This document shows, piece by piece, positions 23,416 to 55,140 of a DNA stretch of 64,000 bases. The DNA is from Bradyrhizobium symbiodeficiens (GTDB taxonomy: Bacteria; Pseudomonadota; Alphaproteobacteria; Rhizobiales; Xanthobacteraceae): assembly GCF_002266465.3 (NCBI RefSeq), contig NZ_CP029427.2, positions 4,528,501-4,592,500 on the forward strand, written 5' to 3'. A program made the translations under genes and the position numbers. Below the pieces are notes generated by a model. The model was not told the DNA's origin. It ran no database searches and saw nothing but the letters and a program-made list of their open reading frames with translations. Position 1 is the first letter of the stretch, and each line of letters opens with the position of its first letter.

Positions 23416-24369
23416 TCAGGCCGATTTGACCCCATAAGGCAGCGGCTTGTCCTCGAAGAACGCGGTCAGGTTGGCCAGGACGCAGTTCTGCATGGCGACG
23501 TGCGATTCGAGGGTGTGGCCGCCGATATGGGGGGCGAACACAACGTTGGGGAGCGCCGTCAGGGCGTCGGGGGCGTGCGGTTCCTTCTCGAAGACGTCGA
23601 GGCCGGCCCCCGCAATGGTCTTGTCGGTCAGCGCCTTGACCAGCGCCTGCTCGTCGATCACCGATCCGCGGGAGATGTTGACGACATAGCCGTCCACCCC
23701 GAGTCGCCTCAGGATGTCGGCATTGACGACGTGCTGGGTGTCGGTTCCTGCCCGGACCGCGATCATCAGCACGCTGCACCAATCGGCCAGCGCCTCCAGC
23801 GTCGGGAAATATTGATAGGGCAGATCGTACTCAGTCCGGCTGAAATAGCCGATTTCGCTCTCGAAGGCGGCGCAGCGCGCGGCGATCTTGCGGCCGATCT
23901 CGCCCATGCCGTAGATGCCGATGCGGCGGCCGGGCATGCCCGCCTGCGGGCGCATCATCGGCGATTGCTTCGACCCCGCCCAGTCGCCGCTGCGGACATA
24001 TTGGTCGGCGACCAGGATCCGCCGCGTCGTTGCCAGCATCAGGGTCATCGCGATGTCGGCGACCGAGGCGGCATTGGCGCCCGGGCTGTGGCCGACAGCG
24101 ATGTTGCGGGCGGCTGCGGCCGTCAGGTCGACACCGTCATAGCCGGTGCCGTAGCAAACGATGGCGCCGAGTTTTGGAAACAGGTCCATCGCTTCCGCGC
24201 CGAGCGGGGAGCCGCCTGCCGTCAGCATCGCGCGGATGCCACTGAGTTCCTCCGCAGAAAACACCTCGCCTGCGGGCTTGCCGCCGGTGTCGAGCAGTTC
24301 GAACCGCTCGGCGAAACGCGCCATCATCGTCTTGGGAAAGCGCGAATAGATCAGGACCTTGTCAGCCAT
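23416..24369 (-). CDS. D-2-hydroxyacid dehydrogenase, NAD(P)-binding
   Basis: A 317-aa enzyme of the D-isomer-specific 2-hydroxyacid dehydrogenase family, which interconverts 2-hydroxy and 2-oxo acids such as glycerate/hydroxypyruvate. The nucleotide motif GIYGMGEIG is at 151-159. The catalytic set is R234 (NISRGSVID), E263 (FEKEP) and H281 (APHIGGH). The start is taken at the ATG 24369 (MADKVLIYSR); ten extra residues upstream are open but not family-like. It is a metabolic gene inserted between rplA and rplJ, separated from rplA by a strong hairpin. Exact substrate unknown. Confidence 0.88.
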   Translation of the reverse strand: MADKVLIYSRFPKTMMARFAERFELLDTGGKPAGEVFSAEELSGIRAMLTAGGSPLGAEAMDLFPKLGAIVCYGTGYDGVDLTAAAARNIAVGHSPGANAASVADIAMTLMLATTRRILVADQYVRSGDWAGSKQSPMMRPQAGMPGRRIGIYGMGEIGRKIAARCAAFESEIGYFSRTEYDLPYQYFPTLEALADWCSVLMIAVRAGTDTQHVVNADILRRLGVDGYVVNISRGSVIDEQALVKALTDKTIAGAGLDVFEKEPHAPDALTALPNVVFAPHIGGHTLESHVAMQNCVLANLTAFFEDKPLPYGVKSA

Positions 24370-24403
24370 TGTTCTTGTTTCCGTTGAGCCCTGCCACAAA
24401 CGA

Positions 24404-28194: not shown

Positions 28195-29214
28195 TCATGG
28201 GTGGCTCGAGACTTCCTTGCCCAGCCCGTCGTAGCCGGGAGCTTCCTTCGCCGCCTTGGCGGCCTTGTCTGCTGAATACGATCCGCGCTCCGGACTTGCC
28301 AGCCAGATCGCGCCGCCGACGAGCCCGATGATCACGCTGATGGCACCCAGCAGCAGCGAAACCGACAGGGCCTCCTCGGAGGGGACCCCCGCCAGACCGA
28401 GGCAGGCGACCATCGCCCCCTCGCGAACACCCCAGCCGCTGATCGAGATCGGGACCGCCGTCAACAGCACCACGGGCGGAATCAGGATGCCGGCGTCCAC
28501 CACCGAGAGCTGTGCTCCGACACCGCGCGCCAAGGCGAAGCAGGCCGCCGCGGTCACGACATGGATGAGCAGCGCCGACCCGAACAGCAAAGCGCGGCGC
28601 TCCGACTGCAGGAGAAGAAACCTGACCAGCGCTCCGAACCGGACGAAGCTTGCGATCGCCCGATGGGCGATCAGGCGCTTGGGCAGCCGGTCGAGCGTCA
28701 ACAGAATCACGGTGCCGGCGACGCCGGCCAGCGTCAGCCCGCCGATGGCCAGAATCGCGGCATGATCGGACACGCGAGACAACAGGAACGGCAATCCGGC
28801 CACCATCAGCGCGATCAGCCCGATCAACGCGGTGAAACGGTCGGCCGCAACGCCCTTGACCGCCTCCGGCCACTGCACGCCGCGCTGGCGCAGCAGCCAC
28901 ATCCGCACCGCATCACCGCCGACCGAGGACGGCAACACCTGATTGAACCAGAGGCTGATCATCAGGATCCGCCAGCCCGCCAGCCAGTCCAGCGACACGC
29001 CGAGCGCGCGCATGATCAGCTCCCACCGGCCGTTGAGCACGAAGGTCTGGAAGAAAATCAACGACAGCGCCAGGACGAACAGCAAAGGATCGACCGAGAC
29101 GAGATGGTTGCGCAACCGCTGCAGATCGAGGCCGCGCGCGATGTAGACCAGCACCGCGATCGACAGCAGCAGCTTTATCGAAAACAGGGCCGCCTGTTTG
29201 AACCGCGACTGCAT
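28195..29214 (-). CDS. Flippase-like membrane protein (LPG-synthase TM family)
   Basis: A 339-aa polytopic inner-membrane protein of the UPF0104/lysylphosphatidylglycerol-synthase transmembrane family; relatives such as AglD take part in glycolipid transfer. About eight hydrophobic segments are visible. Conserved motifs are NQVLPSSVGGDAVRMWLLR and, near the C-terminus, ISGWGVREGAMV. It is a clear paralogue of the protein at 41831-42811. It probably helps move or transfer lipid-linked sugar; the actual role is not shown by sequence. Confidence 0.8.
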   Translation of the reverse strand: MQSRFKQAALFSIKLLLSIAVLVYIARGLDLQRLRNHLVSVDPLLFVLALSLIFFQTFVLNGRWELIMRALGVSLDWLAGWRILMISLWFNQVLPSSVGGDAVRMWLLRQRGVQWPEAVKGVAADRFTALIGLIALMVAGLPFLLSRVSDHAAILAIGGLTLAGVAGTVILLTLDRLPKRLIAHRAIASFVRFGALVRFLLLQSERRALLFGSALLIHVVTAAACFALARGVGAQLSVVDAGILIPPVVLLTAVPISISGWGVREGAMVACLGLAGVPSEEALSVSLLLGAISVIIGLVGGAIWLASPERGSYSADKAAKAAKEAPGYDGLGKEVSSHP

Positions 29215-41216: not shown

Positions 41217-41769
41217 AGCCGGCCTGCGCCGGTCGACATCGCTGCGCGCGCAGAATCCGGAAGTGTACTATTCGGACGACGCCATCGTCACGGCGGACGA
41301 CGCCACGATCGCGGAGCTGAAGCGCATCGCCGCCGGCAACCCACGTCTGCGCAGCCGGCTGTGCACGCACCCGGATCCCTCGTCCGGCCTGCACGAAATG
41401 CTGATCGTGCATCACCGCGAGGCCTATGTCCGGCCGCACAAGCATCTCGGCAAACCTGAATCGTTTCACGTGATCGAGGGCACTGCCCAGGTCGTGATCT
41501 TCGAGGATGACGGCCGCATTCGCGAGGTACTCGAGATGGCGCCCTACGGCCAGGGCAAGCGCTGCTATTACCGAATGCCCGAGAAGGTCTTCCACTCGAT
41601 CCTGATCACCTCGGAATGGCTGGTGTTCCACGAAACCACCGCCGGCCCGTTCGATCCCTCACGCACGGTATTTCCCGACTGGGCCCCCGATGGCGGCGAC
41701 GCCACCGAGGTCCAGGACTACGTCACCCGGACTGGCGCGCTCGCCGCGGAGCATCTGGTGCGACGGTAG
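41194..41769 (+). CDS. WbuC-type cupin metalloprotein
   Basis: A 191-aa single-domain cupin. The metal-binding histidine cluster is in RPHKHLGKPESFHVIEG, and the second half includes KVFHSILIT. WbuC-type cupins sit in O-antigen clusters of many Proteobacteria, but their reaction is unclear. It starts inside the methyltransferase gene and ends 61 nt before the flippase-like gene. Confidence 0.78.
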   Translation: MGSSSSNEAGLRRSTSLRAQNPEVYYSDDAIVTADDATIAELKRIAAGNPRLRSRLCTHPDPSSGLHEMLIVHHREAYVRPHKHLGKPESFHVIEGTAQVVIFEDDGRIREVLEMAPYGQGKRCYYRMPEKVFHSILITSEWLVFHETTAGPFDPSRTVFPDWAPDGGDATEVQDYVTRTGALAAEHLVRR

Positions 41770-41830
41770 ATTCGACCACACGCGCTGCTCGACGATCCCG
41801 CCCGCGAATGATCGAGGACGACACCAGCCG

Positions 41831-42811
41831 ATGAAGCTGCCCGCAAAAGCACTGGTTACCCTGGTCAAGTTCGCGGTGTCGATCGGGATCCTGGTATTGC
41901 TGTTGCGGACCCAGGATTTGTCGTCCCTGCAAGCCGATCTGCTTGCCGTCAAATTGCACATGCTGGCACTCGCGGTGCTGCTGCTGTTCGCCCAGACCTT
42001 CGTTCTCTGCCACCGCTGGATCCTGATCCTCCGCGCCATGAGCGTGCCCATGGGCTGGCTGCCCGGCTGGCGCATTCTCATCATCAGCACCTTTTTCAAT
42101 CAGGTGCTGCCCGCGGGCGGTGACGCGGTCCGGATCTGGATGCTGCGGCGGAATGGCGTGCAATGGTCGCAAACGATCGGCAGCATCGTGGCCGATCGCT
42201 TTCTCGGCCTGTTGGCTCTTGGTTTCATCCTCCTGGCGGGATTGCCGTTCCTGCTGGCGCGCGTCCCCGACAATTCGCTCCTGTTCGCGATCGCAATCAT
42301 TCTGTCGGCCGCATGCCTCGGCGCAATCGCCCTGGTAACGCTGGACTGGTGGCCGCCGCGCGTGATCGCGGCCGTGCCGTCCAGGGTCGTGCAGTTCGCG
42401 ATGCTGGTCCGGGCTCCGTTGCTGGCGGCCGAGGGGCGAGCGATGCTGATTGGGTCCGCCATTGCCGTCCACCTCATCACCGTCGCGACCTGCTATGTCC
42501 TCGCGATCGGACTGCAGGCGCCGCTCTCCGCACTCGACGCCTTCGTCCTGGTCCCGCTTGTGATCCTGTCCTCCGCGATTCCGATCTCGATCGGGGGATG
42601 GGGCGTGCGCGAAGGCGCGATGGTCGCTGCGCTCGGTCTTGCTGGAATCGCAGCCGACAAGGCGCTCGCGATATCGGTCTTGCTGGGTCTCGGCGCCCTG
42701 ATCGTCGGGTTGTTCGGCGGGCTGGTATGGCTGATCGCGCCGGAGCGCGCCAGCTTCAGCCCCGACCAGGCGCGGACCATCACCGAACGAGCCGATGCAG
42801 CGCCGGTCTAG
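41831..42811 (+). CDS. Flippase-like membrane protein (second copy)
   Basis: A 326-aa paralogue of the protein at 28195-29214: NQVLPAGGDAVRIWMLRRNG here against NQVLPSSVGGDAVRMWLLRQ there, and both have ISI/ISGWGVREGAMV near the end. About eight membrane segments. Family relatives act on lipid-linked sugars or phospholipids. The longer open frame upstream (from 41690) is in the cupin gene and is not used. It may be coupled to the next gene, which can start within it. Confidence 0.8.
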   Translation: MKLPAKALVTLVKFAVSIGILVLLLRTQDLSSLQADLLAVKLHMLALAVLLLFAQTFVLCHRWILILRAMSVPMGWLPGWRILIISTFFNQVLPAGGDAVRIWMLRRNGVQWSQTIGSIVADRFLGLLALGFILLAGLPFLLARVPDNSLLFAIAIILSAACLGAIALVTLDWWPPRVIAAVPSRVVQFAMLVRAPLLAAEGRAMLIGSAIAVHLITVATCYVLAIGLQAPLSALDAFVLVPLVILSSAIPISIGGWGVREGAMVAALGLAGIAADKALAISVLLGLGALIVGLFGGLVWLIAPERASFSPDQARTITERADAAPV

Positions 42812-45128
42812 CATGGGCGCCCCCAGACAAGATCCAGCGATGGCAGCCACCGGGCTGCGCCTGCGCGCCAGCGTCGAGACATGGTCGTTGCGTGTCCTCA
42901 TCTTCGTGACTGCCGCACTGTCCATCTGGTTCGTCAACCGAACCGGCACCTACCGCACCCTGCTCTTCGATGGCGGCTGGACGACTCGATTTTACGTCCT
43001 CGCCTGGATCGTCCTGACGCCGTATCTCGGCTGGCTCATCATGGCGACCGGACGCCTGGTCTTCTCGCTCATCAGGCGCGAGCCCACTCAGCGCGTCGAC
43101 GAGTTCTTCGTCGGCGCGGCCGCGCTCATCTTGACGGGATTTGGACTCGGCGCACTTTCCATCCTGTACCCCCCAATCGTTCTCGGATTTGCGGCCGCGG
43201 TTCTGCTGTGGGATAGCCGCAGCTTCAAAAAGCCGCGGAAATTTGCGCTGACCTTGCCGCTGCTCGCAACATCGGTGCTCGGGCTATGGCTGCTGGCGAC
43301 GGTGTTCATCGATCGCGCTCTCATACCTGACGTCATGTCCAGCGACGTCCAGCAGCTCTACGCCCCGTATCTTGCCGAGGTTGCGAGAAATCACAGCATC
43401 TGGCTCGCGGCCGACAATCCCATCTTCTCCGACTTCGAGGTCGGCCACGGAAACGGGCTGCATCTGATGCTGGCGACGTTTCTGCCGCCCCATGTTGCCC
43501 AGATCATCTCGTTTCTCTACTTCGTCGGGATCGGCGCGGTGATCTTCGAGCTCGCCCGCCTCGTTTTGCCGTTGCAGGCACTTGGACGCCGCTGGGAAGA
43601 CGCGACGATACCGATCGCGTTCGCCTTGGCGGTCCTCGGGCTCGCATGGCCGCAGACGACGCCGAACCTCAGGCCTGGCCTCTACGTCATGGAGTTCGGC
43701 AAATACCACCTTCAGACGGCCGCCTTCTTCGTCTACTTCCTGTTGGTCGTCATTCGATCGTCCCAGAGCCGGGATCGGCTTGCCGCCGGCATGTGCGGCC
43801 TTGCCGTTGCCGCGTCTTATCCGCTCTACGCAGCGTTCGTTTTCCTGATCTCGACATTGGGAGCGTTCACCAAGGCGCTTCAGCGCGACCGATCTGGTCT
43901 CAAGACCTGCGTGCTGCTCGGCTTCGGGGCGATTGCCGGATGCGTGCTGGCATTCTCCGTCAACTATTTCTATCTCGGAATTCCGGCAACCAATCCGTAC
44001 TCGCTGTTCCGGCGGGTCGCATCGGTCGAGCGTTTCTCGCAATTCGGCAGCCTCGATATTCTCGATTATTTCGTGCTGGCGCAGTCGCTGGACGTCAGCG
44101 ATTTCCTCAGCAGGGCAGGATTGCTCGCTTTCCTGAAACAGGTGAGATCCGTTCTGCTGGTCGCAATTCTCATCACAATCGCAATGTGTGCCGTCACGTT
44201 CGCGGGTTCGAGGCTGTTCCCCGATCGCTCCGATGTCTCGAAACCGGGGACATCGTCCAATCCCGTCGGGCTCTTCATTGTCGTCGCCTACTTGGCCAGC
44301 GTCCGACTTCTGGATCTGACGCTGAATATTCCGAGTCTGATGAGGTTATCCGTCCATATCAACGCATTATTCCCGCTTGCGACCGTCGGGATGGTCTGTT
44401 GGGGACTGGTCCTCGTGCGGCGCGTCAAGCCTGCCTGGTTCGCCGATCGCTTCGCGCCCCCAGTCGCCTTCGTGTCACTCCTCGTGGCCTGCGCCTGGGC
44501 GACCAATGCACATCCCTGGAAGAGCTTCCAGAATGACGAGGCCATCACCTTTGTACAGGGGGCGGCACTCGATCGAATGCCCAACGTCAAACTGAACTGG
44601 CAGCGCTGTGACGAGCTGCAGCAATCGACCGGCTCGGATCGCATCCTCGCCCTCAATGGTTACCGCGCAATGGTGCCCTGCTATTTCTCGCCGCTGCTCA
44701 CGCGGGGCAAGATCATCCACACCTATCAGAGTGACGTTGCGCGCGACTTCAGGAAGATCGCACTGGGAAGCGCCGACACGGCAGAGGCCACCCTTCGATC
44801 CCTTGGCGTAAAGTTCTTCTATGTCCAGAAACAGAATTGCGATTTCTGGCTCAATGGATTCTCCGACCTGTTCGAACGAGGCGAGCTGGCGCGGCGGTTC
44901 ACCGTCTATCGCGATACTGCAGGTTATTGGATCTTGACCTGGAAGAATCGCGATCAAGCATTGAGTCCCGAGATCGAAGCCGCCATTTCGGCTTTGAGGA
45001 CGAGATCGAAAGACATCTACCGGGAAGGCTACGGCACCGATCCGTTCGAGGTGATGAAGCACGGTTCGGCCCGTCGCGGCGAACGCGGGAATATCGCCGT
45101 ACTCGATCAGCTCTTCACCTGCCAGTGA
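42795..45128 (+). CDS. Large polytopic membrane protein, GT-C or polymerase candidate
   Basis: A 777-aa protein of no family I can name with confidence. It has about 11-13 hydrophobic segments between residues 35 and 600, then a roughly 170-aa non-membrane tail with three Cys (RCDELQQ, VPCYFS, KQNCDFW). A large periplasmic-type loop with DVMSSDVQQLYAPYL and GHGNGLHLM follows the fourth or fifth helix. This layout fits GT-C glycosyltransferases. The start could be ATG 42795 (overlapping the previous stop) or 42813 (MGAPRQDPAM). Confidence 0.6.
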   Translation: MQRRSSMGAPRQDPAMAATGLRLRASVETWSLRVLIFVTAALSIWFVNRTGTYRTLLFDGGWTTRFYVLAWIVLTPYLGWLIMATGRLVFSLIRREPTQRVDEFFVGAAALILTGFGLGALSILYPPIVLGFAAAVLLWDSRSFKKPRKFALTLPLLATSVLGLWLLATVFIDRALIPDVMSSDVQQLYAPYLAEVARNHSIWLAADNPIFSDFEVGHGNGLHLMLATFLPPHVAQIISFLYFVGIGAVIFELARLVLPLQALGRRWEDATIPIAFALAVLGLAWPQTTPNLRPGLYVMEFGKYHLQTAAFFVYFLLVVIRSSQSRDRLAAGMCGLAVAASYPLYAAFVFLISTLGAFTKALQRDRSGLKTCVLLGFGAIAGCVLAFSVNYFYLGIPATNPYSLFRRVASVERFSQFGSLDILDYFVLAQSLDVSDFLSRAGLLAFLKQVRSVLLVAILITIAMCAVTFAGSRLFPDRSDVSKPGTSSNPVGLFIVVAYLASVRLLDLTLNIPSLMRLSVHINALFPLATVGMVCWGLVLVRRVKPAWFADRFAPPVAFVSLLVACAWATNAHPWKSFQNDEAITFVQGAALDRMPNVKLNWQRCDELQQSTGSDRILALNGYRAMVPCYFSPLLTRGKIIHTYQSDVARDFRKIALGSADTAEATLRSLGVKFFYVQKQNCDFWLNGFSDLFERGELARRFTVYRDTAGYWILTWKNRDQALSPEIEAAISALRTRSKDIYREGYGTDPFEVMKHGSARRGERGNIAVLDQLFTCQ

Positions 45129-45337: not shown

Positions 45338-47308
45338 GTGGACCGCGCGAGGGAATGCTCGATCGCCGCCAGGGCAGTGGTCGCCGCGCTGCTCGGGTGT
45401 GCCGCGGTCTACCTGGCACTGCTGCTGCTGAAAGATCACCTTCCGGCATTTCAATGGAATTTCGACGATGGCTTTGATCTGACTGCAGCCCAAAAGAATT
45501 GCGACCTCTGCAAGAAGGCATTCTACGGATCGTTCTTTCTATCGGCGCCGATTGCGGCTGCGGCCGCGTTGTATGCGTCGCATCGATCATCGGGCTCACT
45601 GCTGCTGAGCGCGCTCACTGCGTTTCTGGTCTATCTCGCAATCGATTTCGCCAACGATCGTGGCAACTTCCCGTTCGCGGTGGTCATTCTGGGGATCGCG
45701 GCCGTCACGGTCGAACTCAACCGGCGGGCCAATCCCTCCTTCTCGCCCGCCAGATCTTCCGCGGGCTTTCCGTTCCGCGTCGGGCTGATCGATCTGCTTC
45801 CGATCGCTTTTCTCGCCCTGTTGTTGATACCGTCCGATCTGGAACGTGTGACGTCCGTCGTGCGGGACGAGGCGCATAAGGTCAGTTACTTCATCGGACC
45901 CGCGCTCTACGGCTACGCGCCCGGCCTTGTTCCGGGATTGGACTACCATTCGCATTATGGCCCGGCGCTCGGCTGGTTCTTCCATCTCATCATGGGAGAT
46001 GGCTGGAAATCGGCGGCCATGCGGGTGGTCGGATTGAACATTGCGATCACGCTGGCGACCTATATTCAGGCCTATTTCTTACTGACCTATTTGGTCAGGT
46101 CGAGGCTCGCCGCGATCGGTATCGTCTCGGCTCTGGCGGTGCTGGCCTTCTCCACCGCCAACCACTTCTACTCTCCGTCCGCCTATCCGACCCGGTTTCC
46201 TCTGCTGATCGTCTTCGTGCTCGCGATCGGCCTGCACTGTGTCGCCCCCAGGCGTCCGGGATGGCTGATCGTGTCCGCTGTCTTCTGCGCGCTCTCGCTG
46301 CTCTGGCAAACCGAGATCGGGCTGTTCTTCCTCGTCACAGGCACATTCGTCGCCGCGGTCGCCAGCGGCTTCCCGGACTACCGCAACGTGGCCGTATTCG
46401 TCGGCACCTCGATTGCGACCGCAATGTTGATATGCCTGCTGCTGTTCGGATCGAGAGCGCTTTCCCTGACGTTCCTGATCGAGTGCTTCCGTCCGCTCGT
46501 GCTCTACGGCACGGGGTGGGGAAGCGCACCCATCAAATGGTTTCTGCGCTGGAGCATGATCTATAATCTTCCGCTCCAGATCGTTGGCTGCGTCACGATC
46601 GGCTGGGCCACGATACGGCTGTCACGGCCGTCAGACTCCGCACGCGACCGGTTCGTGACTGGAGTGCTGCTGGCACTATCGATGATCGGCGTTGCGCTGA
46701 TGATCAAATGGGTCAACAGGACGCTCGACGCAGTCTGGCACCAGAATGCCTTGCCTCTGGTCATTGTTGCCGCCTGGTGGGCCAATCAGCTCACCATCGA
46801 ATGGCGACCCACGTTTCGGCGTGCGCTCGGCGCCCTGTCGGCCGTTGCTGCGGTTCTGGCGCTGCTCTTCGTGCAGGACATTTACAATCCGCACCTCTAC
46901 GGCCTGCGATCCTACGCAAACTATCCGAGCCTTCTGAACTGGCCGTTCGTTTCGACGACCCCCGGCACGTGGCAAGAGGATTTTGGCCGGATCACCGAGA
47001 CAGAAACCAAATTCATCCAGGACAATACGAAGTCAGACGAACGTGTCCTGGTCATCGCGATGATGGATTGGGCTTATCTGGCGCAAGCGCATCGCGCCCC
47101 CCAAGCCTATTTCATGCCGCTCCTCGTCGCCTTTGATGCGCAGTTCATGGATCGCACGATGAGTAACGCGAATCGGCTGTTTTACGACGACATCGTCGCG
47201 CGCCGGTCCGACAATCCCCGCATTCGCGAAGCCATGGCGTGGATCAATCGCGATTTCGTGGCTGTGGAGACCCGGGGAAATCTGACGCTCTACGAGAGGC
47301 GGAAGTGA
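45338..47308 (+). CDS. Large polytopic membrane protein, GT-C-like
   Basis: A 656-aa polytopic protein with about 11 hydrophobic segments up to residue 530 and a C-terminal soluble part (ETETKFIQDNTKSDERVLVI onward). The first outside loop has FQWNFDDGFDL, a paired-Asp feature seen in many GT-C glycosyltransferases, and GLDYHSHYGPALG lies in a later loop. GTG start at 45338. It lies 209 nt after the previous membrane protein. Probably transfers sugar from a polyprenyl-phosphate donor; the specific role is unknown. Confidence 0.58.
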   Translation: MDRARECSIAARAVVAALLGCAAVYLALLLLKDHLPAFQWNFDDGFDLTAAQKNCDLCKKAFYGSFFLSAPIAAAAALYASHRSSGSLLLSALTAFLVYLAIDFANDRGNFPFAVVILGIAAVTVELNRRANPSFSPARSSAGFPFRVGLIDLLPIAFLALLLIPSDLERVTSVVRDEAHKVSYFIGPALYGYAPGLVPGLDYHSHYGPALGWFFHLIMGDGWKSAAMRVVGLNIAITLATYIQAYFLLTYLVRSRLAAIGIVSALAVLAFSTANHFYSPSAYPTRFPLLIVFVLAIGLHCVAPRRPGWLIVSAVFCALSLLWQTEIGLFFLVTGTFVAAVASGFPDYRNVAVFVGTSIATAMLICLLLFGSRALSLTFLIECFRPLVLYGTGWGSAPIKWFLRWSMIYNLPLQIVGCVTIGWATIRLSRPSDSARDRFVTGVLLALSMIGVALMIKWVNRTLDAVWHQNALPLVIVAAWWANQLTIEWRPTFRRALGALSAVAAVLALLFVQDIYNPHLYGLRSYANYPSLLNWPFVSTTPGTWQEDFGRITETETKFIQDNTKSDERVLVIAMMDWAYLAQAHRAPQAYFMPLLVAFDAQFMDRTMSNANRLFYDDIVARRSDNPRIREAMAWINRDFVAVETRGNLTLYERRK

Positions 47309-52858: not shown

Positions 52859-52909
52859 GCCTGCGCGACGTCCGCAAGGCGGGATGCAGGGCGGGACGAT
52901 GGGCTCCCT

Positions 52910-52938
52910 TGACCGGAAAAATTCGACCTTTTATAGAC
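52910..52938 (+). promoter_or_regulatory. Promoter of the small-membrane-protein/GT2 unit
   Basis: TTGACC (52910-52915), a 17-nt spacer and TATAGA (52933-52938) form a very good sigma-70-type promoter on the plus strand. Transcription would begin near 52945, about 40 nt before the ATG at 52985. It is the best promoter seen inside the carbohydrate locus. Confidence 0.8.
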
Positions 52939-52984
52939 TTTCGCTCTGGCTGGGCCTGAGCGACCTCCGGGGCGATTTTCCGCA

Positions 52985-53491
52985 ATGAACATGCTACCGG
53001 GCCCGGCGCAAGCCGCTGCGATTGGTCTCAGCGTCGCGCTGCCGCTGCTGTTGCTGTGCTATGCGCGCATCGCCGCCACCGGCGGATCCGGCCGCCGCTT
53101 CCGGCTCGGCTCCGTCAGCATCCTGGCCCTCTACGCGATCGCCTGTATCGCGCTTCCCGGTCAACGCCAGTTCGACGACGTGCTTGGCGGCCTGTTCCTG
53201 CTCGCGACCGCGATGATGTTTTGCTACATCCTGTTCAGCCTGCTGGCCTGGGGCTTCACGCTGACGCTGCTCACGGCACTCGTTAAGGCCGAACGTCCCC
53301 TCACCCTGGAGCAATGGGCCGTAGCCTACATGCAGGGCGGCGATCTCGGTTCTTTCACGCACAACCGCCTGAAACTCCTGGTCGGCGCGGGGATGGTGAT
53401 CGCGGCAGACGGCAGGCTGGCTCCGACGGCGAAGGGGGTGGCGATCGCGCGCCTCGTCAAACTCGTTCGTCTGTCGACGGGCCTTGGGTGA
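52985..53491 (+). CDS. Small membrane protein with winged-helix-like tail (first of tandem pair)
   Basis: A 168-aa protein of unknown family. Three hydrophobic segments (about residues 10-27, 42-55 and 65-98) are followed by a roughly 70-residue soluble tail: LTLEQWAVAYMQGGDL, then NRLKLLVGAGMV, DGRLAPTAKG. The tail looks like a small winged-helix domain. The same layout and consensus (RxxxLVxxGxVxxxDxRxAxTAxG) occur in the next gene, so they are paralogues. It has its own promoter. Function unknown; a membrane-bound sensor or regulator for the adjacent glycosyltransferase is one idea. Confidence 0.7.
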   Translation: MNMLPGPAQAAAIGLSVALPLLLLCYARIAATGGSGRRFRLGSVSILALYAIACIALPGQRQFDDVLGGLFLLATAMMFCYILFSLLAWGFTLTLLTALVKAERPLTLEQWAVAYMQGGDLGSFTHNRLKLLVGAGMVIAADGRLAPTAKGVAIARLVKLVRLSTGLG

Positions 53492-53497
53492 GAGGCC

Positions 53498-54007
53498 ATG
53501 ATGTCCTTCGTTGTCGGATTCCTCGCCGCCGTCACCTTCGCCCTGCTGTCGCCTGCCTTGCAGCTCATGGCCCGCACACGCGGATGGTCGGTTGGAGCCG
53601 TCACCCTGCTCGCGATCGCCGCGATCCTCACCCATGGTCTCGGCGTGCTGCTCGGAATCCTCGTTGTCCCGCAATTTCAGTACTGGGACGCCGCGTCGAT
53701 TTTCGGTTTTTGCGTGATGGGTTACGTCTTCGCTTTTGGCGCAGTGTACAAATCGGTTTCCCTGGAGATTCTGCTCGGCGTGGTCGACCGGCCCGAGCGG
53801 AGGGCTTCGCTGTCCGAGATCATCGAACGGCAGGTTCCAGATCTGTTCCAGGGACGAATTAGGAACCTGGTCGACGGCGGCCTGGTCGAACCGGTGGATT
53901 CACGCTTCGCGGCGACGGCGGCGGGCCGCAAGATGGCAGGCCGCGTCGGACAGCTGCGCCGGGCCTTCGGCATCGGCGATACCAGTCTCTATGATTTTTC
54001 CGAATAG
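53498..54007 (+). CDS. Small membrane protein with winged-helix-like tail (second of tandem pair)
   Basis: A 169-aa paralogue of the preceding protein, starting 6 nt after its stop. Three hydrophobic segments (about residues 3-24, 32-57 and 66-92), then a soluble tail with RASLSEIIERQVPDLFQGRI, NLVDGGLVEPVDSRFAATAAG and GRKMAG. Overall identity is low but the helix/tail arrangement and tail consensus match. It ends 140 nt before the GT2 gene. Function unknown. Confidence 0.7.
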   Translation: MMSFVVGFLAAVTFALLSPALQLMARTRGWSVGAVTLLAIAAILTHGLGVLLGILVVPQFQYWDAASIFGFCVMGYVFAFGAVYKSVSLEILLGVVDRPERRASLSEIIERQVPDLFQGRIRNLVDGGLVEPVDSRFAATAAGRKMAGRVGQLRRAFGIGDTSLYDFSE

Positions 54008-54147
54008 TTGCCGGGAACACACACATCGGCGGCTTCGTGCCGGTTCTGCAGGGCATATCTGCGCCCCCTTATTGTTCGCTCGGCCCAGATGACCTAGAGT
54101 TGCGGTGGGGTTCCACCAGTAGAGTGGCCGGCAACAGGCGGCATGAG

Positions 54148-54909
54148 ATGACACCTTCCAGGGCGGCCAAGAAACTTACCATCGTCATCCCTGCACTGAA
54201 CGAGCAGGACAAGATCGCCGACACCATTGACGGCGTGTTGCCGCTCGCCCGCGAGCTGCTCGACGATTTCGAGATTTTCCTGATCGACGACGGCAGCACC
54301 GACTCCACCGGTGCGATCATGGACGAGTTCGCGGCCGGCGAGCCGCGCATCGTCGTGCAGCATAACGCCGAGCCGCGCGGTGTCGGGGCCGGCTTCGAAT
54401 ACGCCCTGTCGCGCGCGAAATTCGATGCCATCACGCTCATTCCCGGCGATCACGCCTTCCAGAACGAGGGGATTGCGCAGATGTTCAAGGCGGCGGGCGC
54501 CGCCGACCTCGTCATCACCTATCGCGACAACCAGTCGGACCGCTCCGTCAACCGCTCGCTGCAGTCGCACTCGCTTCGGTTCATCCTGAACTGCCTGTTC
54601 GGCTTCTGGCTGTCCGACTACCACAGCATGATCGTCTACCCCGTGAAATGGCTGCGCCAGATCGCGGTCAAGGCCGACGGCTACGGCTACCAGATCTGCG
54701 CCCTGATCTCGCTGCTCCAGCTCGGCCTCACTTACGTCCAGGTGCCCGTGAGCCTGAATGCGGAGCTGAAGGGCTCGTCCCGCGCGCTGCGGCTGCGCAC
54801 CTATCTCGAGCTCGGCGGCACCATCGTGTCGCTACTGCGCCGCGTTCCCATCCGGCACGTCGATCTCAGCCAAATTCCCGATGACGCGGAGCGGGCCCCG
54901 GCGCGCTAG
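54148..54909 (+). CDS. Family 2 glycosyltransferase (polyprenyl-phosphate sugar synthase type)
   Basis: A 253-aa GT-A-fold enzyme with PALNEQDKI (15-23) and the nucleotide-sugar motif IDDGSTDSTG (46-55), similar to dolichyl/undecaprenyl-phosphate sugar synthases but without C-terminal membrane helices. The start is the ATG 54148 (MTPSRAAKKLTIVIPALN); a longer upstream frame is not family-like. It probably loads a sugar onto a lipid carrier for the GT-C-like proteins of this locus. It is the last gene before the repeats and tRNA-Trp. Confidence 0.82.
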   Translation: MTPSRAAKKLTIVIPALNEQDKIADTIDGVLPLARELLDDFEIFLIDDGSTDSTGAIMDEFAAGEPRIVVQHNAEPRGVGAGFEYALSRAKFDAITLIPGDHAFQNEGIAQMFKAAGAADLVITYRDNQSDRSVNRSLQSHSLRFILNCLFGFWLSDYHSMIVYPVKWLRQIAVKADGYGYQICALISLLQLGLTYVQVPVSLNAELKGSSRALRLRTYLELGGTIVSLLRRVPIRHVDLSQIPDDAERAPAR

Positions 54910-55064: not shown

Positions 55065-55140
55065 TGGCAGGAGTGGCAGGGCTCGAACCTGCGACCCCCG
55101 GTTTTGGAGACCGGTGCTCTACCAATTGAGCTACACTCCT
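55065..55140 (-). tRNA. tRNA-Trp (anticodon CCA)
   Basis: The minus strand folds into a standard cloverleaf: acceptor AGGAGTG/CACTCCT, D-arm GCTC...GAGC, anticodon stem CCGGT/ACCGG with loop CTCCAAA (anticodon CCA), T-arm GCAGG TTCGAGC CCTGC, discriminator G and an encoded CCA end (55067-55065). Its 3' end points toward the carbohydrate locus. In many alphaproteobacteria tRNA-Trp lies just upstream of secE; here they are 28.5 kb apart. Confidence 0.97.

Follow-up and report, generated by a model that had tools for sequence, protein, structure and literature searches.

To our knowledge, how soluble GT2 glycosyltransferases are retained at the membrane and matched to flippases has been worked out in detail in only a handful of bacterial systems. 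In Ara4N transfer, small membrane protein pairs work as flippases (ArnE/ArnF, which match EamA/SMR profiles), and lipid-linked sugars are used outside by GT-C enzymes. GtrA/GtrB systems (GtrA_DPMS_TM, PF04138) combine a GT2, a small membrane protein and GT-C logic on polyprenyl-linked sugars. ToxR and CadC carry an N-terminal OmpR-type winged helix, a single membrane helix and a periplasmic sensor. In type-II dolichol-phosphate mannose synthase, DPM1 is without membrane helices and depends on separate membrane subunits, DPM2 and DPM3 (PMC5526996). Proteins of COG0392 (UPF0104) are predicted glycolipid flippases (PMC5898192).

Here, we report a pair of small membrane protein genes, M1 and M2, that stands directly before a GT2 gene in a glycan cluster of Bradyrhizobium symbiodeficiens. 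The window (the whole stretch of DNA analysed, 64,000 nucleotides) covers base 4,528,501-4,592,500 in a 7.03-Mb single-contig genome. Like DPM2/DPM3, M1 and M2 are two small membrane proteins with a separate GT2 that has no membrane helices; they differ in size and build (168 aa, three helices and a predicted winged helix, against 80-90 aa and two helices each, without a winged helix). This comparison is offered as an analogy of role, with no relationship claimed and with the GT2 named as a putative partner by context. The general logic of GtrA/GtrB is also shared, but no GtrA match was obtained for either M1 or M2, which do carry a predicted winged helix; a third, single-gene relative adjoins a GtrA gene. 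ArnE/ArnF have four helices where M1/M2 have three, and their profile is unmatched. The tails resemble HxlR, MarR and ArsR regulators in predicted fold and in the core motif R...L...G, whereas those regulators are soluble DNA-binding dimers and M1/M2 are membrane proteins that fall below the Pfam cut-off and for which no operator was found. A cytoplasmic winged helix on a membrane protein recalls ToxR/CadC (PMC5430869), but in M1/M2 the winged helix would follow three helices at the C-terminal end, and a periplasmic domain is absent.

Table 1. Features of the window and loci of distant relatives (positions refer to the window unless a locus is named)
Feature	Position	Strand	Remarks
secE-nusG-rplK-rplA-rplJ-rplL-rpoB-rpoC block	3-26.6 kb	minus	
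LPG_synthase_TM flippase-like gene, second of the cluster	28195..29214	-	PF03706, E 5e-47
LPG_synthase_TM (UPF0104/COG0392) flippase-like gene	41690..42811, likely start 41831	+	PF03706, E 7e-41
GT-C-like polytopic protein, 565 aa	51161..52858	-	Divergent from M1
Promoter	-35 TTGACC 52909-52914; -10 TATAGA 52932-52937	+	17-nt spacer; 9/12 consensus match
M1, 168 aa	52985..53491	+	Membrane helices about 7-30, 36-56, 63-88; predicted winged-helix tail about 90-165
M2, 168 aa	53501..54007	+	Three membrane helices; predicted winged-helix tail about 87-157
GT2 glycosyltransferase domain protein, 253 aa	54148..54909	+	Pfam PF00535, E 4e-21
tRNA-Trp	55065-55140		
M1-M2 pair, another family of the same order	L045		
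M1-M2 pair, another order of the class	L046		
M1-M2 pairs, one other genus of the class	L058, L068-L073 and related loci		Seven species found
Single-gene M1/M2 relatives	L078:11977-12621; L076:1396-2043		Three helices and predicted winged helix; motif DRSLSIYIV

Gene pair and predicted architecture

The original prediction had described two adjacent 168/169-aa open frames with three membrane helices each, and both proved open and conserved. The M1 and M2 frames are stop-free in about 22 distinct Bradyrhizobium loci and show purifying selection, with dN/dS of about 0.17-0.23 (M1) and 0.26-0.42 (M2). M1 and M2 are real genes, though less constrained than the GT2 enzyme (dN/dS 0.05-0.12). The M2 frame could start at 53498 (169 aa); the second ATG (53501) is the probable start, since for most relatives the alignment begins only at that point. 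For the GT2, the ATG at 54148 was preferred because M2-GT2 spacing differs by 1-3 nt between loci. An in-frame M1-M2 fusion, considered for long open frames in L017-L019, was rejected, as these are two genes in different frames with a spacing of 515 nt.

M1 and M2 matched each other by BLASTP at E 3e-5, limited to 74 aa, and by alignment of deep profiles (hhalign) with 96% probability (E 2.8e-9; 90 columns, spanning the entire tail together with helix 3). Both proteins satisfy the proposed tail pattern, RxxxLVxxGxVxxxDxRxAxTAxG, at every fixed position, and at the level of sequence profiles M1 and M2 are paralogues, as had been proposed, with homology reaching beyond this pattern. Invariant positions in M2 are found at 12/20 sites in helix 3 and 8/12 at the C-terminal end (conserved as FGIGDTSLYDF), with 0/11 in H2 and 3/13 in the wing. 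In the M1 tail, the turn and the recognition helix (H3) are well kept.

Three membrane segments were detected in M1 and in M2 by hydropathy. Positive charge in loop 1 and in the tail of both predicts an N-out orientation with a cytoplasmic tail; the end of M1 would thus be cytoplasmic and the start of M2 outside. AlphaFold2 models (10-sequence alignments; modest confidence, with a mean pLDDT of 66 for both and 63-84 in the M2 tail) agree with three membrane helices in both proteins. The tails, which had been called winged-helix-like, were modeled with a common element order (H1, H2, H3, two-strand wing, H4), and H1 runs on from membrane helix 3 with no linker in either protein. Foldseek searches against the PDB returned winged-helix regulators for M2 (MarR-type 4b8x, E 5e-3; AF1382, target TM-score 0.73) and for M1 (YodB, target TM-score 0.77; HxlR-type 3df8). 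Target TM-scores of the winged-helix matches were 0.5-0.77, and the lowest E was 5e-3; the lack of any match below E 1e-3 is expected of a short domain and a medium-quality model. Part of the M1 matches were winged-helix regions of O-methyltransferases, which indicates that the fold does not always serve DNA. From these models, a winged-helix C-terminal tail is predicted in M1 and in M2.

No match above cut-off was obtained for M1 or M2 in Pfam, NCBIfam or PHROGs. The best Pfam winged-helix score was to HVO_A0261_N (15.8 bits versus a cut-off of 35), and the HxlR profile reached 0.055 in one alignment member alone, below its curated cut-off. GtrA_DPMS_TM (PF04138) had no match at E<=1 in any M1 or M2 alignment member; as a control, the GtrA gene adjoining the L076 relative matched at 1e-18. 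EamA/SMR (ArnE/ArnF) profiles gave no match for M1 or M2, and a sequence-profile search of solved structures yielded weak matches only, mostly to winged-helix regulators (best E 0.03-0.5). Soluble proteins at L032, L049, L050, L052-L055 and L057 are HxlR-like regulators that match in the tail only, and were rejected as whole-protein relatives; L043 was also rejected. Plasmid searches, whether queried with M2 or with distant M1/M2 sequences, returned no match, and no description of the family was found in the literature. M1-M2 is an undescribed family, in line with the original prediction, which had named unrelated tail structures or a profile match to a known family as outcomes that would count against it; neither occurred.

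The pair had further been credited with its own strong promoter, the best in the locus. The promoter is present, and its TTGACC and TATAG are invariant in 18/18 aligned Bradyrhizobium loci with variable flanks; by score it is not uniquely best, as five sites in the 28-55 kb interval, this one included, reach 9/12.

An inverted repeat (TCGCTCTGGC/GCCTGAGCGA, 52941-52963) overlaps the likely M1 transcription start. It was equalled in 11/1000 shuffles, and is present in the window and its closest relatives. It was rejected as an autoregulatory operator because it decays in the other relatives, and no conserved operator was found at the M1 promoter across relatives.

Gene context and distant relatives

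M2 occurs in 12/61 sampled genomes of Bradyrhizobium (window genome counted), and all Bradyrhizobium loci fetched have M1, M2 and the GT2 side by side in that order, which bears out the GT2 neighbor that had been pointed out. The closest solved relatives of this GT2 are ArnC, an undecaprenyl-phosphate sugar transferase (PDB 9hwj, E 7.5e-9), and by hydropathy it lacks the two C-terminal membrane helices seen in ArnC/GtrB. A GT2 orthologue (>=80% identity) was found in 11/11 pair-positive genomes tested and in 1/29 pair-negative genomes, where the sole copy is an incomplete gene, apparently at a contig edge. Since the three genes are linked, this co-occurrence reflects a jointly inherited block, not independent co-selection. 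The divergent GT-C-like gene adjoins M1 in most Bradyrhizobium loci and was not found in L012, L018 and L019.

Profile searches recovered pairs in three further alphaproteobacterial lineages (Table 1), so that the proposed link to glycosyl-transfer genes reaches beyond the genus. The searches together covered about 2000 genome slots, with many genomes entered repeatedly and the first look capped, so that absence from a lineage is weak evidence. M1 precedes M2 in 4/4 pair lineages, even where pairwise identity with the window proteins falls to about 15-20%. All distant pairs are set in glycan clusters, where they occupy internal or terminal positions in biosynthetic operons and face no promoter. 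An LPG_synthase_TM (UPF0104) gene directly precedes M1 in L045, where it matches PF03706, and in L058, L068 and L071-L073 (two lineages in all); in L046, such a gene lies a few kilobases from the pair. In L045 and in the L058 genus, the clusters contain a GT2 (about 250 aa) whose membrane-helix signal is slight or absent, and the nearest GT2 found in L046 belongs to a 477-aa protein at a distance of 8 kb. Epimerases, transketolase halves, an HldE-like kinase/cytidylyltransferase, a 224-aa methyltransferase and a SIS-domain isomerase are likewise shared, in differing combinations, between the window and the clusters of L046 and the L058 genus.

Single-gene relatives were also identified. The L076 protein (about 215 aa), found at the edge of detection, aligned to M1 at E 2.6e-6 and to M2 at E 1.5e-5 over helix 3 and the tail (hhalign). 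It adjoins GT2 and GtrA genes, and this GT2, read by eye from its sequence, appears to have membrane helices of its own. A homologue, HBAL_RS16110 (WP_012778257.1), is encoded on Hirschia baltica plasmid pHbal01, where it is annotated as hypothetical and lies directly upstream of a glycosyltransferase (GT2) gene followed by a GtrA family gene. HBAL_RS16110 resembles M1/M2 in architecture and in the helix 3-to-tail motif (DRSLSIYIV, versus KSVSLEILL in M2 and GFTLTLLTA in M1), and its L076 homologue matches both profiles; it differs in length (about 214 aa), in being a single gene instead of a pair, and in adjoining GtrA instead of UPF0104. The two contexts indicate that the M-type architecture recurs with a GT2 and a flippase-type gene as neighbors, in gene orders that are unrelated to each other. 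M1/M2 and the single-gene relatives probably form a larger unrecognized family, which would give hypothetical proteins such as HBAL_RS16110 a name and a context.

Proposed role and competing readings

Given the recurrent context described above, we favor, at about even probability, a reading in which M1-M2 would form a two-subunit membrane unit (platform or regulator) for polyprenyl-phosphate-sugar synthesis and flipping. The complex itself, that is dimerization, docking of the GT2 or the flippase, and the cargo, is what we infer. M1 and M2 would be two halves of one membrane unit, each crossing the membrane three times, with the winged helix placed directly on the cytoplasmic face because its helix 1 continues membrane helix 3. 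The two tails probably pair together, as winged-helix domains often do, and the paired tails would dock the GT2, an enzyme without a membrane anchor of its own. M1-M2 may also couple the GT2 to the UPF0104 flippase-like protein; the lipid-linked sugar would then be made and flipped at one site, supplying the GT-C enzymes outside. As a small, paired, conserved membrane family with a predicted winged-helix head, M1-M2 is a testable candidate for GT2 retention and flippase matching.

Several observations count against such a platform. DNA is the commonest ligand of winged helices, and the closest solved folds to the tails are DNA-binding regulators. In three lineages the GT2 lies kilobases from the pair, with UPF0104 often nearer, and conservation in M1 (a conserved turn and H3) is less clear than in M2. 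In M2, conservation in helix 3 and the C-terminus, not in H2 or the wing, is more readily explained by protein contacts than by a fixed DNA operator, and for the winged helices of M1/M2 protein binding is more likely than DNA binding. The third relative, L076, is at odds with a purely anchoring role, since its adjacent GT2 seemingly has helices of its own; in general, the role would therefore be coupling or control instead of anchoring alone. A broader version, in which M1, M2 and the Hirschia-type singletons are a widespread family that reuses a DNA-binding fold as a membrane docking head, coupling a soluble GT2 (polyprenyl-phosphate sugar) to a flippase (UPF0104/GtrA), is put forward tentatively, as possible but doubtful.

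The main rival to the M1-M2 platform is that the two proteins are membrane-tethered transcription regulators, whose transmembrane part would sense a lipid-linked intermediate or the membrane state while the winged helices control glycan genes via the divergent promoter region. This we consider unlikely. The tail folds do match MarR-, HxlR- and ArsR-type DNA-binding regulators, the M2 profile weakly matches soluble HxlR-like proteins, a conserved promoter adjoins the pair, and in the window the inverted repeat lies over the likely start site; but that repeat decays in relatives, hence there is no conserved operator, and the helical tail joins membrane helix 3 without a linker. Furthermore, the M2 recognition helix and wing are conserved less than helix 3 and the C-terminus, and the pairs of other lineages do not face a promoter. 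Should the tails bind DNA instead, they would represent a new layout of membrane-tethered regulator, so that the family would be new either way.

Less probable again, and in our judgment quite unlikely, is a direct part in flipping, with M1/M2 as a small heteromeric flippase (a role like that of ArnE/ArnF) or as obligate subunits of UPF0104, and with regulatory tails. The precedent of Ara4N transfer, the contiguous UPF0104-M1-M2 order in two lineages and the GtrA gene beside the third relative speak for it; against it, M1 and M2 match neither EamA/SMR nor GtrA profiles and have three helices per subunit instead of four, and a second flippase would be redundant in clusters that already hold UPF0104 or GtrA. 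Slightly less likely still, the association with GT2 and flippase genes could be mere co-inheritance in surface-glycan islands, with the pair doing another membrane job (e.g., stress sensing or assembly of another cluster enzyme), since linkage alone makes genes of one island co-occur and many other cluster genes are shared (transketolase halves, HldE-like kinase/cytidylyltransferase, 224-aa methyltransferase), but GT2 or flippase genes turn up as immediate neighbors across unrelated gene orders, and beside the separate third relative as well.

Glycan cluster and chromosomal setting

The glycan cluster (26841-54909, roughly 28 kb) is flanked by the ribosomal/rpo block and tRNA-Trp. These two are usually neighbors, which suggests that the glycan island was inserted between tRNA-Trp and secE; copies at L074 and L075 occupy other chromosomal sites. 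LPG_synthase_TM has only 5 copies in the 7.0 Mb genome, 2/5 of them in this cluster. The region at 30-41 kb encodes an HldE-like kinase/cytidylyltransferase, a SIS-domain isomerase, an APH-type phosphotransferase and the N and C halves of a transketolase, a gene set hinting at a heptose-derived or branched-chain sugar as the cluster product.

The 565-aa GT-C-like protein divergent from M1 had no Pfam match (E 1) and no NCBIfam match. Two further large polytopic GT-C-like proteins are encoded in the cluster at 42795-45128 (+) and 45338-47308 (+), with no Pfam match at E 0.01, and large unmatched membrane proteins like these three are also present in the distant clusters. Within the ribosomal protein block, rplA and rplJ are separated by a co-directional gene that resembles a 2-hydroxyacid dehydrogenase (23416-24399, minus strand).
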